Assembly (NCBI RefSeq): GCF_016595235.1
Contig: NZ_JAENHL010000008.1
Coordinates: forward strand, 1,758,624-1,822,623
Direction of reading: 5' to 3'
Origin: Taklimakanibacter albus
GTDB taxonomy: Bacteria; Pseudomonadota; Alphaproteobacteria; Rhizobiales; Aestuariivirgaceae
DNA length: 64,000 nt
Positions 57,786-62,143 of this stretch are shown one piece after another. The notes beneath the pieces are model-generated. The model saw nothing but the letters and a program-made list of their open reading frames with translations. It ran no database searches and was not told the origin of the DNA. The position numbers and the translations under genes were made by a program. The first letter of the stretch is position 1. Every line of letters begins with the position of its first letter.

Positions 57786-59474
57786 TCAGGCCGGCGACAG
57801 CGGACGCAGGGGCAGGCCCGGGCGCTGGCGGCTCTGCCAGCCCTCCGCCAACCCGACCGGCGCATTGGAGGCCGGGAGCAGCGGGCGGCCGCGCAGAAGA
57901 TCGGCGGCGCGCTCGGCCAGCATGATGGTCGGCGCGTTCAGATTGGCATTGGGCTCGCTTGGGAAAACCGAGGAGTCGATGACCCGGAGACCGGAAAGCC
58001 CACGCACCCTGAGCTCGCTGTCGACCACCGCCATTCCGTCTTCGCCCATGCGGCAGCTGCCACAAGGATGATAGGTGGTCTCCATCGTCCGGCGCACGAA
58101 GTCATCGATCTCATCATCGCTCTGGACATCGGGACCGGGCGCCACCTCGTCACCCCGATAGGGATCGAAAGCGGGCTGCGCGATGATCTCGCGGGTGAGC
58201 CGCACACAACGCCGGAAGCCCTCGCGGTCCTCCTCGCGATCGAGATAATTGAAGAGAATGGCCGGGTGCTCATTCGGATCGGCCGAGCGCACCCGCACAT
58301 GGCCGCGGCTCTTCGGCTTATTGGGGCCGGTCAGCACCATGAAGCCATGGCCGTCGAGCGGCTGCTTGCCGTCATAGCGCATGGCGGCGGGCAGGAAGTG
58401 ATACTGGATGTCGGGCCAGGCGACGGACACGTCCGAGCGGATGAAGCCACCCGCCTCGAAATGATTGGTGACGCCGAGGCCGCGCTTGAACAACAGCCAT
58501 TCGAGCCCGATGCGCAACCGGCCCAAGGGCCCCATATGGCCGTTGAGCGTGATCGGCTGCTTGCAGGCATATTGGATGTAGATCTCGGAATGATCCTGCA
58601 GATTCTCGCCGACGCCCGGCAGTTCGTGCACGATCTCGATGCCGGCGGCATTGAGCACCTGGGCCGGGCCGATGCCCGAGCGCTGCAGGAGATGCGGCGA
58701 GCCGATCGCTCCCGCCGCCACGATGACCTCGCGCCGGCAGCGGGCCTGACGAAGTGATCCGTTGACGGAGTATTCGACGCTCTCGGCACGGCCCTCGCCG
58801 ATGATCACTCTGTGCGTCAGGGCATGGGTGACGACACGCAGATTTGGCCGCGCCATCGCGGGACGCAAATAGGCATTGGCCGTCGACCAGCGCACGCCGT
58901 TCTTGACCGTCATATGCATCGGGCCGAAGCCCTCCTGCATATAACCGTTCGGATCGGTGGTCATCGAATAGCCGGCCTCCTGCCCCGCCGCCACGAAGGC
59001 CTTGCAGAGCGGGTTGGCCATGTCGTTGCCGCTGTTGACATGGAGCGGCCCGTCTTGACCGCGATAATCGTCACCGCCGCCGGCGAAGGTCTCGGCCTTG
59101 CGGAAATAAGGCAGGCAGTTTCTATAACCCCAGTTGCGGGCGCCGAGCTTCTCCCATTCGTCATAGTCGTGAGCATGCCCGCGCATATAAACGAGGCCGT
59201 TGATCGACGACGAGCCGCCCAGCACCTTGCCGCGCGGACAATGGATGCGCCGCCCGTTAAGGCCGGGCTCGGGCTCGGTGTAATAACGCCAGTTGTATTT
59301 GCTGCCATTCATCGGGATCGAAAAGGCGCTCGGCATCTGGATGAAGATGCTGCGGTCATTGCCGCCGAATTCGAGCACCAGCACGCTCGTCGCCGCGTCT
59401 TCGGTCAGCCGGTTTGCGAGGACGCAGCCCGCCGAACCGGCGCCGATGATGATGTAATCATAGATGTCGGACAT
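57786..59474 (-). CDS. GMC oxidoreductase, choline dehydrogenase-like
   Basis: This 562-residue FAD enzyme has YIIIGAGSAGCVLANRLTED at the N-terminus, GGSSSINGLVYMRGHAHDYD as the GMC signature 1, and TYHPCGSCRMGEDGMAVVD with the catalytic His. Length and blocks resemble BetA; without a betaine cluster nearby the alcohol substrate is undecided. It is 16 bases after the NCS1 permease gene, so uptake and oxidation of one substrate is likely. Confidence 0.88.
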   Translation of the reverse strand: MSDIYDYIIIGAGSAGCVLANRLTEDAATSVLVLEFGGNDRSIFIQMPSAFSIPMNGSKYNWRYYTEPEPGLNGRRIHCPRGKVLGGSSSINGLVYMRGHAHDYDEWEKLGARNWGYRNCLPYFRKAETFAGGGDDYRGQDGPLHVNSGNDMANPLCKAFVAAGQEAGYSMTTDPNGYMQEGFGPMHMTVKNGVRWSTANAYLRPAMARPNLRVVTHALTHRVIIGEGRAESVEYSVNGSLRQARCRREVIVAAGAIGSPHLLQRSGIGPAQVLNAAGIEIVHELPGVGENLQDHSEIYIQYACKQPITLNGHMGPLGRLRIGLEWLLFKRGLGVTNHFEAGGFIRSDVSVAWPDIQYHFLPAAMRYDGKQPLDGHGFMVLTGPNKPKSRGHVRVRSADPNEHPAILFNYLDREEDREGFRRCVRLTREIIAQPAFDPYRGDEVAPGPDVQSDDEIDDFVRRTMETTYHPCGSCRMGEDGMAVVDSELRVRGLSGLRVIDSSVFPSEPNANLNAPTIMLAERAADLLRGRPLLPASNAPVGLAEGWQSRQRPGLPLRPLSPA

Positions 59475-59490
59475 GGCCTCGCTTCACTTT

Positions 59491-60927
59491 CTATGATTGC
59501 GGATAGTCGCCCCAGCCGCGCCGGCGCACCCAGGCCCAGGTCAGGAGCACATGCACGAGGCCCGCCGCCACGCAGGACGGGATCGAGGCGGTGAGATAGA
59601 CGAAGACCGGGGCATGGCTCAGCGTCTGCGGGTTGAACACCCAGACATAAACGATGAAGCCGACGGCGAGTGCGATCAGCCCGGCCGGATTGAAGCCCTG
59701 CCAGAAGCGATAGGCCGGATCATGCGGGCTGGCGAAGAGCGCTCTCAGATTGAGCCTCTGCTTGCGCAGGAGGAAGAAGTCGGCGATGCCGATGCCGGTC
59801 AAGGCGCTGTTCAAGGCCGATGTCCAGACCAGGAACTTGAAGAAGCCGTCATAGATTCCGGGCATGAACAGGACGAGGAACAGCGGCACCAGGCAGAAGA
59901 GCAGCGCCAGCACTTCCCAGCGCATGGCGCGTAAAGACCCAGTGCCGACCTGACGCAGGCCGATGACCGATGTGTAGAGGATGTTGGTCATGCTGGTGAT
60001 GTTGGCGAAGGCGACGAAGGCCAGCGCGATGATGCCGATGGTGATGCCGCCGATCTGTGCCATCCAGATGGTGGGATCACTGTTGCCGAGCGCCACCGCG
60101 GCGAGAAGGCCGACGGTTTCGCCCAAGGCGGCGGCGCCGAAGATGCCGATGAGATTGGGCCACATCGCCGTGCGCTCGGTCTTGGTGAGGCGCGCGAGAT
60201 TGCCGACATAAGGCCACCAGGACATGCCGGCGGCGATATTGACCTCGATCGCGATGATGAAGTTGACCGTGTTGTCCTCGAAAGGCGGATCAAGCGCCTT
60301 CATCGCCATCAGATCGGCGAAGGAGTGCTTCGACAGGATCAGCACCATCATCACGACCATCAGCGCGAGCAGCGCCGGCGCCACGACCATGTTGAAGAAC
60401 TTGATCGAGGTCGGCCCCTTGGCGACGATGAACCAGGTGAGCAGGATGGCGCCGACCGCGGCGACGAGCACCGAAAGGCCTGAGCCGCTTTGCGGCGTCG
60501 CCGCGGCGCCGGCCGCCAGCCCTTTGAGGCCCTCGATCGAGCGGCCGAACATAAGTCCCAGCACCGCGAGCCAGCCCATGGTGAGGAAGACCACGGCGAG
60601 GAAATAGACGACGCGGCTGCCATTGGCGCCGAACATGCTGCGCAGGAAGACGAATTGCTCGATGCCGTAACGCCCGGTCGCCACACAGGTGGCGAGCGCG
60701 GTCAGGACGACGCCGATGATGTTGCCGATCACGATGGCGGCGATGCCCTCTTTCGGGCCGACAAACAGCCCGACGGCGCCGCCGATCAGAAAGGCCCAGG
60801 TGGCGATCGCCAGGGCCGAATTCGCATAGGTGAATTCCCAGAAGCCCCAGAGTCTTTCAGAGGGCAGCAAGGGCGCATCGCCGCGCTCGGCGGCCAGCTG
60901 GAACTCGTCCGTCTCGACGCTCGCCAT
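59491..60927 (-). CDS. NCS1-family permease (cytosine/purine type)
   Basis: This 478-residue transporter has about 12 helices. RLWGFWEFTYANSALAIATWAFL and GIAAIVIGNIIGVVLTALA are the first-helix motifs of the NCS1 family, and SWWPYVGNLARLTKTERTAMWPN is typical of helix 6. NCS1 members import nucleobases, hydantoins or vitamins with H+ or Na+. The start codon is one base from the stop of a tiny membrane protein gene. Confidence 0.88.
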   Translation of the reverse strand: MASVETDEFQLAAERGDAPLLPSERLWGFWEFTYANSALAIATWAFLIGGAVGLFVGPKEGIAAIVIGNIIGVVLTALATCVATGRYGIEQFVFLRSMFGANGSRVVYFLAVVFLTMGWLAVLGLMFGRSIEGLKGLAAGAAATPQSGSGLSVLVAAVGAILLTWFIVAKGPTSIKFFNMVVAPALLALMVVMMVLILSKHSFADLMAMKALDPPFEDNTVNFIIAIEVNIAAGMSWWPYVGNLARLTKTERTAMWPNLIGIFGAAALGETVGLLAAVALGNSDPTIWMAQIGGITIGIIALAFVAFANITSMTNILYTSVIGLRQVGTGSLRAMRWEVLALLFCLVPLFLVLFMPGIYDGFFKFLVWTSALNSALTGIGIADFFLLRKQRLNLRALFASPHDPAYRFWQGFNPAGLIALAVGFIVYVWVFNPQTLSHAPVFVYLTASIPSCVAAGLVHVLLTWAWVRRRGWGDYPQS

Positions 60928-60928
60928 G

Positions 60929-61099
60929 TCAGCGCCCCCAGAGCCAGAAGCCGGCGACCAGAGCGACGCTCAGGAGAGTCATCGCCCAATAATCCAGGGC
61001 GGTCAGACGGCCGGGGAGCTTTCCCGCGGCTTCCAGGTCTTCGTAAAGGGCGATCCGGCGGTCGAGCTCATGCGACCAGGCACTGGCGGGGTCCAGCAT
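60929..61099 (-). CDS. 56-residue single-helix membrane protein before the NCS1 permease
   Basis: An overlooked short frame starts at ATG 61099 with AAGGAA seven bases before. The product begins MLDPASAWSHELDRRIALYE, an amphipathic charged helix, then LTALDYWAMTLLSVALVAGFWLW, one membrane helix, and ends GR. Its stop is one base before the permease ATG, so the two are translationally coupled. It may be an accessory subunit of the transporter, as small helices are of other importers. I recognise no family. Confidence 0.75.
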   Translation of the reverse strand: MLDPASAWSHELDRRIALYEDLEAAGKLPGRLTALDYWAMTLLSVALVAGFWLWGR

Positions 61100-61176
61100 T
61101 GCGATTTCCTTCCCTGATTTGAGGCTTAAGCCCTGTCTTTTGGGTCAGAGAAGGACAGCAAAGGTCGTTGCGTTGA

Positions 61177-61190
61177 AAAAGATATATCTT
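61177..61190. promoter_or_regulatory. 14-bp palindrome in the divergent LysR promoter region
   Basis: AAAGATATATCTTT is perfectly symmetrical. It lies 30 bases before the LysR start and about 80 before the small membrane protein, in a locally AT-rich patch. It is a candidate site for the divergent regulator. LysR T-N11-A symmetry is not obvious. Confidence 0.45.
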
Positions 61191-61219
61191 TCTACGTTTA
61201 CATATCAGATTATCTATGA

Positions 61220-62143
61220 ATGTCCGCCGCCCTGCCCAGAAGCCGCCGCACCCTCAGCGACACGGATCTCCGGCTGCTGCGGGTCTTTGCCGAGATCGTG
61301 CGCCATAATGGCTTCTCGGCCGCCCAGGACAGCCTCGGCATGACCCAGGCGACGATCTCGCTCCATATGCGAAATCTCGAGGAGCGGCTGGGACTGAGGC
61401 TGTGCGAGCGTGGCCGCAGCGGCTTCTTCCTCACCGCCGAGGGCAAGCAATTGCATGAGGCGGTGCGCGATCTTTTCGGCTCGATCGAACATTTCCTAAC
61501 CGCCGTCAGCGACATCCAGGGCGAGCTTGTCGGTCGGCTGGCTTTCGGCACGGTCGATGCGATGGAGAGCAATCGGACGCTCGGCCTCGATCAGGCGATC
61601 GGGGATTTCGCCAAAGCGGCGCCCAAGGTGCTGCTCGATATCGACATCGCCACGCCGCAGGCCTTGATGCAGGGCCTGCTCAGCGGCCGCTATCAGATCG
61701 TGCTGGTGCCGGCGCAGCCGCGCGCCCAGACCATGCAGGCGATCGACGTCTTCGCCGAGCGGCAGAATCTTTATTGCGGGCGCGGCAATTCACTCTTTTC
61801 CGTCGCCGACGCGGAGCTGACGCCCGAATTGCTCGCCGGCCAGCCTTTTGCCGGGCGTTCCTATATGCAGGAGGCGCCGATCTGCGGCGTCGACTTCCAC
61901 TGGCATGCCGTCACCGCCCATATGGAGGGAACGCTGCTGATGCTTCTGTCGGGCGCCTATATCGGCTTCCTGCCGGGCCACTATGCCGAGGCTTCGGTCC
62001 GTGCCGGTGCGTTGCGCGCGCTGGCGCCCGACCGGATGACCTATGACGACACATTCCAGATCGTGTTCAGCCGCGAGCGCGCCAATCGCGCCGCGCGGCT
62101 TCTGGCGGAAGCCATCCTGCGCCATTGCAAAGGGGCCGCGTGA
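61220..62143 (+). CDS. LysR-family regulator, divergent from the transport cassette
   Basis: This 307-residue regulator has the helix-turn-helix GFSAAQDSLGMTQATISLHM and an effector domain from about 95. It is divergent from the small protein, permease and GMC genes with 120 bases between start codons, the classical layout of a LysR regulator with its target operon. Confidence 0.92.
   Translation: MSAALPRSRRTLSDTDLRLLRVFAEIVRHNGFSAAQDSLGMTQATISLHMRNLEERLGLRLCERGRSGFFLTAEGKQLHEAVRDLFGSIEHFLTAVSDIQGELVGRLAFGTVDAMESNRTLGLDQAIGDFAKAAPKVLLDIDIATPQALMQGLLSGRYQIVLVPAQPRAQTMQAIDVFAERQNLYCGRGNSLFSVADAELTPELLAGQPFAGRSYMQEAPICGVDFHWHAVTAHMEGTLLMLLSGAYIGFLPGHYAEASVRAGALRALAPDRMTYDDTFQIVFSRERANRAARLLAEAILRHCKGAA

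Follow-up and report, generated by a model that had tools for sequence, protein, structure and literature searches.

The window, by which we mean the whole 64,000-nucleotide stretch of Taklimakanibacter albus DNA that was analyzed, carries a gene for a small single-helix membrane protein of 56 amino acids on the minus strand (60929..61099), a call based on the ORF, its homologues, dN/dS in relatives, and AlphaFold2 modeling. The gene reads ATG...TGA from 61099 to 60929 (56 codons), and its product is MLDPASAWSHELDRRIALYEDLEAAGKLPGRLTALDYWAMTLLSVALVAGFWLWGR. A Shine-Dalgarno-like sequence, AGGGAAGGA (61107..61115, minus strand), lies 7 nt 5′ of the ATG. The stop codon ends at 60929 and the ATG of a permease gene starts at 60927, leaving a spacing of one base. 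The initial annotation had described a 56-residue ORF with a ribosome site, one base from the permease start, and the sequence confirmed this description. The small ORF is probably translated. In addition, a GGGGG run in its 3′ end (60935..60939, minus strand) is a possible ribosome site for the permease, which suggests that translation of the two genes may be coupled.

The permease (59491..60927, minus strand; 478 amino acids) matched PF02133 above the gathering cut-off (78.7 vs. 23.5 bits) but fell below the curated cut-off of TIGR00800 (90.5 vs. 353.1 bits), and the latter result identifies it as a divergent member of the NCS1 family. It is followed by a gene for a GMC/choline-dehydrogenase-like oxidoreductase (57786..59474, minus strand; 873.1 bits to PRK02106 and 767.8 bits to betA), apparently the next member of the operon. 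A divergent LysR-family regulator gene, matching HTH_1 and LysR_substrate, occupies 61220..62143 on the plus strand.

An AlphaFold2 model of the small protein, built from 50 sequences, contained helices at residues 4-25 and 34-55 with a mean pLDDT of 87.5, the second (membrane) helix having the highest values. The initial annotation had proposed an amphipathic head followed by one membrane helix. The two helices agreed with this architecture, but the amphipathic character of the head did not stand, as its helical moment was equaled in 248 of 1000 shuffled heads and was thus within chance. In close relatives, the head carries the motif ELxRRIxxYE and the membrane helix ends in W-G. The predicted topology is N-in, which would place the short first helix in the cytoplasm.

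No curated Pfam or NCBIfam family covered the small protein, and only weak matches were obtained. The best Pfam E-value among 50 members was 0.011. Matches to the NCBIfam models TIGR04302 (10 of 50 proteins, best E 0.0013) and NF041580 DidA (4 of 50, best E 0.001) were judged to be effects of amino-acid make-up and were set aside. When a profile of the small protein was searched against the PDB, the best and only match was a yeast protein at E 0.17.

Conservation among close relatives

Fifty relative loci were fetched from the GTDB genome collection using the permease sequence alone; their hosts include Alpha-, Beta-, and Gammaproteobacteria. A homologous ORF of ~55 amino acids was present directly upstream of the permease in all 50, so that the frame, whose absence from relatives had been named as grounds for refutation, proved to be conserved. 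The ORF was intact in 49 loci; in the remaining one (L059), an N and a duplication in the assembly interrupt the same small-gene sequence. Of the 49 intact copies, 46 have a stop codon that precedes the permease start by 1-3 bases, and in the other 3 the two overlap. In an alignment of these copies with that of the window, R15, Y19, G30, and W54 were invariant, and L12, E20, D36, Y37, T44, L47, V48, and G55 were nearly so.

The dN/dS of the small gene was 0.272 among 14 rhizobial-type sequences and 0.276 among 11 Pseudomonas sequences, compared with pN/pS values of 1.15-1.62 for its two other reading frames. This difference indicates selection on the product of the gene and not just on its frame. 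Permease values (dN/dS 0.46 and 0.56) were set aside because the pairs lacked codon alignment.

Using the small protein alone as the query (E 0.1), we obtained matches in 2 of 69 genomes of the family, one being the genome of the window and the other G055 (98% identical). One of the four other genomes of the genus matched and three gave no match, while at the order level matches were found in 8 of 297 genomes, all but the window's own being weak (E 0.008-0.09). By this query, the pair of small gene and permease is rare and patchy. The small protein by itself was too weak a query, a difficulty overcome by starting from the permease. A profile of the small protein (A1) run against 385 genomes of the class returned only the window's own copy among the candidates scored (at most 17 per genome), divergent copies being out of its reach.

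The surroundings of the pair were compared by tblastn in the 50 relative loci, accepting any position and strand and including some distant matches. LysR was found in 47, GMC in 45, SpeB/ureohydrolase in 36, and aldehyde dehydrogenase in 34. A neighborhood of LysR, ureohydrolase, aldehyde dehydrogenase, small gene, NCS1 permease, and GMC genes recurs (57786-62143 in the window; L010-L058), without every gene being present at each locus. It looks like an uncharacterized guanidino or amino-alcohol pathway. Of the four enzyme and regulator genes in this set, the window's own locus adjoins only GMC and LysR; a close SpeB relative (75%) sits elsewhere in the same genome. The SpeB query matched that genome at 15 places (E 1e-10; L208 and 14 more), suggesting that it encodes many ureohydrolases. 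Other neighborhoods within the branch contain nickel chaperones, an amidohydrolase, a porin, or a phosphotransferase, and the small gene stays in each.

Distribution across the NCS1 family

A small one-helix ORF stood in front of the permease in all 73 branch loci examined, each counted once; besides the window, these are the 50 relatives, 14 loci on plasmids, and 8 loci from surveys. Seventy copies were intact, one was broken by the assembly, and two were stopped. The initial annotation had suggested looking for the same gene before permeases elsewhere, and it was indeed found in 22 further branch members, although an in-frame stop interrupts two of these copies. The hosts belong to Pseudomonadota, apart from a single locus in Actinomycetota and another in Bacillota. 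Related permeases occurred in 42 plasmid records, and the plasmid counts cover 14 of these. Twelve of the 14 had an intact gene, which carried the annotation 'hypothetical protein' in 10 records and was missing from the annotation of L065 and L068. Annotated copies include those of Thioclava, Burkholderia, Rhizobium, Arthrobacter (Actinomycetota), Bacillus (Bacillota), and Pseudomonas hydrolytica KHPS2. Judged by annotation only, no small gene was present upstream of three more distant plasmid NCS1 genes.

The genome of the window has a second pair of small gene and NCS1 permease, of another sub-type (L168, contig C6; MARGQLEPELERRVALLEK...). For its third NCS1 gene (L163), no small ORF passed in the scan.

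We then compared a profile of the 50 close small proteins with 12 divergent ones, each set against 300 shuffled decoys that kept the make-up of its head and of its tail and membrane parts. All 12 scores were low (at most 9.8 bits). For seven proteins (L067, L065, L070, L168, L174, L182, and that of KHPS2), only 0-2 of the 300 decoys scored as high or higher, supporting their kinship with the window's family. The corresponding numbers were 7 for L069, 42 for L064, 60 for L066, 112 for L183, and 213 for L068; beyond make-up, these five show no clear resemblance to the window's family, and their kinship is suggested by position and shape. The head motif was absent from L183 and L184 (39 aa).

Two surveys extended the comparison to NCS1 carriers at large. 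PF02133 matched 48 of 199 Pseudomonadota genomes at 1e-10, in 106 places, of which 103 were examined; the exclusions were the permease of the window itself and a gene split into two parts. The filter asked for an ORF of 38-110 codons with a ribosome site and a hydrophobic stretch near its C-terminus, close to the start of the permease. The ORF with the most hydrophobic stretches was treated as the permease. Three of the 103 places passed (L168, L174, and L082). L168 and L174 fall in the window's branch in the permease tree, and the ORF at L082 was judged to be a chance hit, since it lies 100 bases from the permease and lacks the conserved head. This survey ruled out that a small gene accompanies all NCS1 carriers.

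In the second survey, a profile of 16 permeases with small genes (A2) was run against 397 genomes and gave at least 28 loci at 1e-25; members may be missing from this number, since no more than 4 candidates were scored in each genome. When the 28 listed loci were ranked by E-value, the top six (to 2.4e-51) had the small gene, including three (L182, L183, and L184) that are absent from the profile itself. Among the lower 22, only L201 passed, under a slightly looser filter, and by eye its ORF read as the end of an agmatinase-like gene. The NCS1 gene that this agmatinase-like gene seems to abut lies outside the branch, a hint that guanidino links within NCS1 may be wider. Under the same limit, this profile gave at least six loci at 1e-45 in 385 genomes of the class; all three new ones had a small ORF, with ribosome sites judged by eye and one TTG start.

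The scanned loci outside the branch thus lacked the small gene: among 101 + 22 = 123 loci (117 distinct, six genes being in both surveys), two ORFs passed the filter and neither was convincing. This is in line with the initial statement that NCS1 carriers normally act alone. The solved NCS1 carriers Mhp1 and CodB belong to the same permease family (E 6e-30 and 8e-14), but their scores, rather than a tree, suggest a position outside the branch.

In the permease tree, a single branch (SH-aLRT 99) separated 31 sequences with the small gene from 31 without, and the window's permease lay in the small-gene clade. The tree was made by a quick method and had no inferred root; its rows without the gene were 31 cluster representatives of 126 loci and included several long branches, and L063, despite its stopped copy, was counted among the rows with the gene. 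The trait required one change of state on this tree, compared with a mean of 21 after shuffling, and none of 500 shuffles was as low. One acquisition followed by lasting retention is the simplest reading.

Stopped and intact copies on metformin plasmids

The permease of the KHPS1 metformin plasmid (L063), assigned to the MetT type by its gene cluster only, falls inside the branch. The small ORF before MetT-type permeases was identified on three metformin plasmids (L063, 4768-4959; L178, 2768-2959; L179, 2768-2959). It contains an in-frame stop in those of KHPS1 and P. mendocina MET and is intact before the counterpart in P. hydrolytica KHPS2 (P0009). In PMC9800807, KHPS1 and P. mendocina MET are counted among the metformin degraders. 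Since the copies on the plasmids of these two degraders are stopped, the small protein is apparently not strictly needed for the MetT-type permeases there.

MetT itself is described as an NCS1 transporter of metformin, a biguanide, in PMC13390362. Because MetT carries a biguanide, we infer guanidino or amino-alcohol substrates for the window's sub-branch. The same source reports complementation by metT and describes the deletion for metT. This would fit a carrier with or without need of a partner, because a small gene upstream of metT, should Aminobacter NyZ550 have one, may have remained. No MetT partner is named in the sections covered, and the main text contains no word beginning with 'small' or 'hypothetical'.

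No description of a small partner of NCS1 carriers was found among the titles and abstract openings of the papers listed, a coverage that leaves out most subscription papers and all preprints, and for the terms checked none appeared in the available portions of PMC11633122. None of the literature found describes such a partner and the databases give it no name; the initial annotation had expected that a dedicated small partner would be new or little described. A possible link to PA1420/PA1419 of P. aeruginosa was dropped, as no evidence for it was present in the literature covered.

A candidate subunit of the carrier

From its sequence and distribution, the ORF is a real, conserved, and unnamed small membrane protein gene that marks one NCS1 branch. 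We consider it reasonably probable that its product is a dedicated one-helix accessory subunit of this divergent branch, stabilizing or tuning the carrier. The small gene has stayed beside the permease even where the regulator, the enzymes, or the phylum differ, and membership in the carrier is the best explanation for its product; an absolute requirement is argued against by the two natural copies that are stopped. The reading as a dedicated partner, put forward in the initial annotation, is therefore supported at the level of sequence, but a physical partnership goes beyond this evidence.

The small protein would be made just before the permease, probably through translational coupling. Its short, presumably cytoplasmic helix would lead into the single membrane helix ending in W-G, which may pack against the outside of the permease. 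There it could assist in folding, stabilizing, or cycling the permease, in a manner comparable to the action of MAP17 on SGLT2. Both binding to the permease and an effect on transport would be expected under this mechanism. We folded the natural read-through of the Pseudomonas pair as one chain with AlphaFold2; the model (pLDDT 70.8, pTM 0.68; pLDDT 56-75 for the small part, with a separate helix at 35-61) carries no interface score and gives no firm indication of docking. In Foldseek, this fused chain retrieved Mhp1 and CodB first and then many LeuT-fold carriers. The sixth row was SGLT2 from an SGLT2-MAP17 entry, the matching part being the carrier.

Small subunits are known from bacterial SSS symporters, namely DUF485/YjcH with ActP, DUF4212, and DUF997/YhdT with PanF. 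As in our case, a small membrane protein is encoded just before a LeuT-fold symporter; unlike in our case, these proteins have more helices and their partners are SSS, not NCS1, carriers. DUF485, DUF4212, and DUF997 were absent from the Pfam matches of the 50 small proteins at E up to 0.1. MAP17 is a one-helix partner whose helix contacts TM13 of SGLT2, a LeuT-fold cation (sodium) symporter, and PMC10803289 describes it as aiding folding and localization. That pair is human and involves another transporter family, and partner binding in the NCS1 branch is a conjecture by comparison.

Retention of the gene across differing regulators and neighbors also favors a part of the carrier over a protein that acts from outside the transport complex, such as a regulator or quality-control factor involved in permease turnover or a reporter of its state. 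We regard the latter role as unlikely, although known one-helix bacterial proteins act in this way and the two stopped copies indicate that loss is possible. The tight spacing in the close relatives (1-3 bases in 46 of 49, overlap in the other three) would suit a leader ORF that is translated to make the permease ribosome site accessible, with little activity of the peptide itself. Such a leader is hard to reconcile with the amino-acid conservation (dN/dS 0.27; invariant R15, Y19, G30, and W54), with a hydrophobic helix in all copies, or with gaps as long as the 67 bases annotated in Bacillus badius and the 62 bases in L182, and we think it very improbable. Equally improbable is a membrane tether that would serve substrate channeling by recruiting to the carrier a catabolic enzyme encoded in the same operon: the conserved, probably cytoplasmic helix and the LysR/SpeB/ALDH/GMC neighbors of most close relatives fit it, but within the branch the small gene persists next to varying enzymes, and the window's locus keeps only GMC and LysR of that set.

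Returning to the accessory subunit, a wider and more tentative proposal is that this three-phylum NCS1 branch, including the metformin transporter type, may consist of two-part transporters that acquired a one-helix subunit once. NCS1 carriers are regarded as single-chain symporters, and if a second gene belongs to the whole clade, some of these carriers would be heteromeric. If so, attempts to express or assay such carriers would be affected, possibly including the bacterial metformin transporter, as omitting the subunit may hinder work on the carrier alone. The three metformin plasmids, with stopped and intact small ORFs, offer a natural test of the need for the partner. If true, the branch would also give a model from bacteria for the way in which LeuT-fold symporters work with one-helix partners, as in SGLT2-MAP17.
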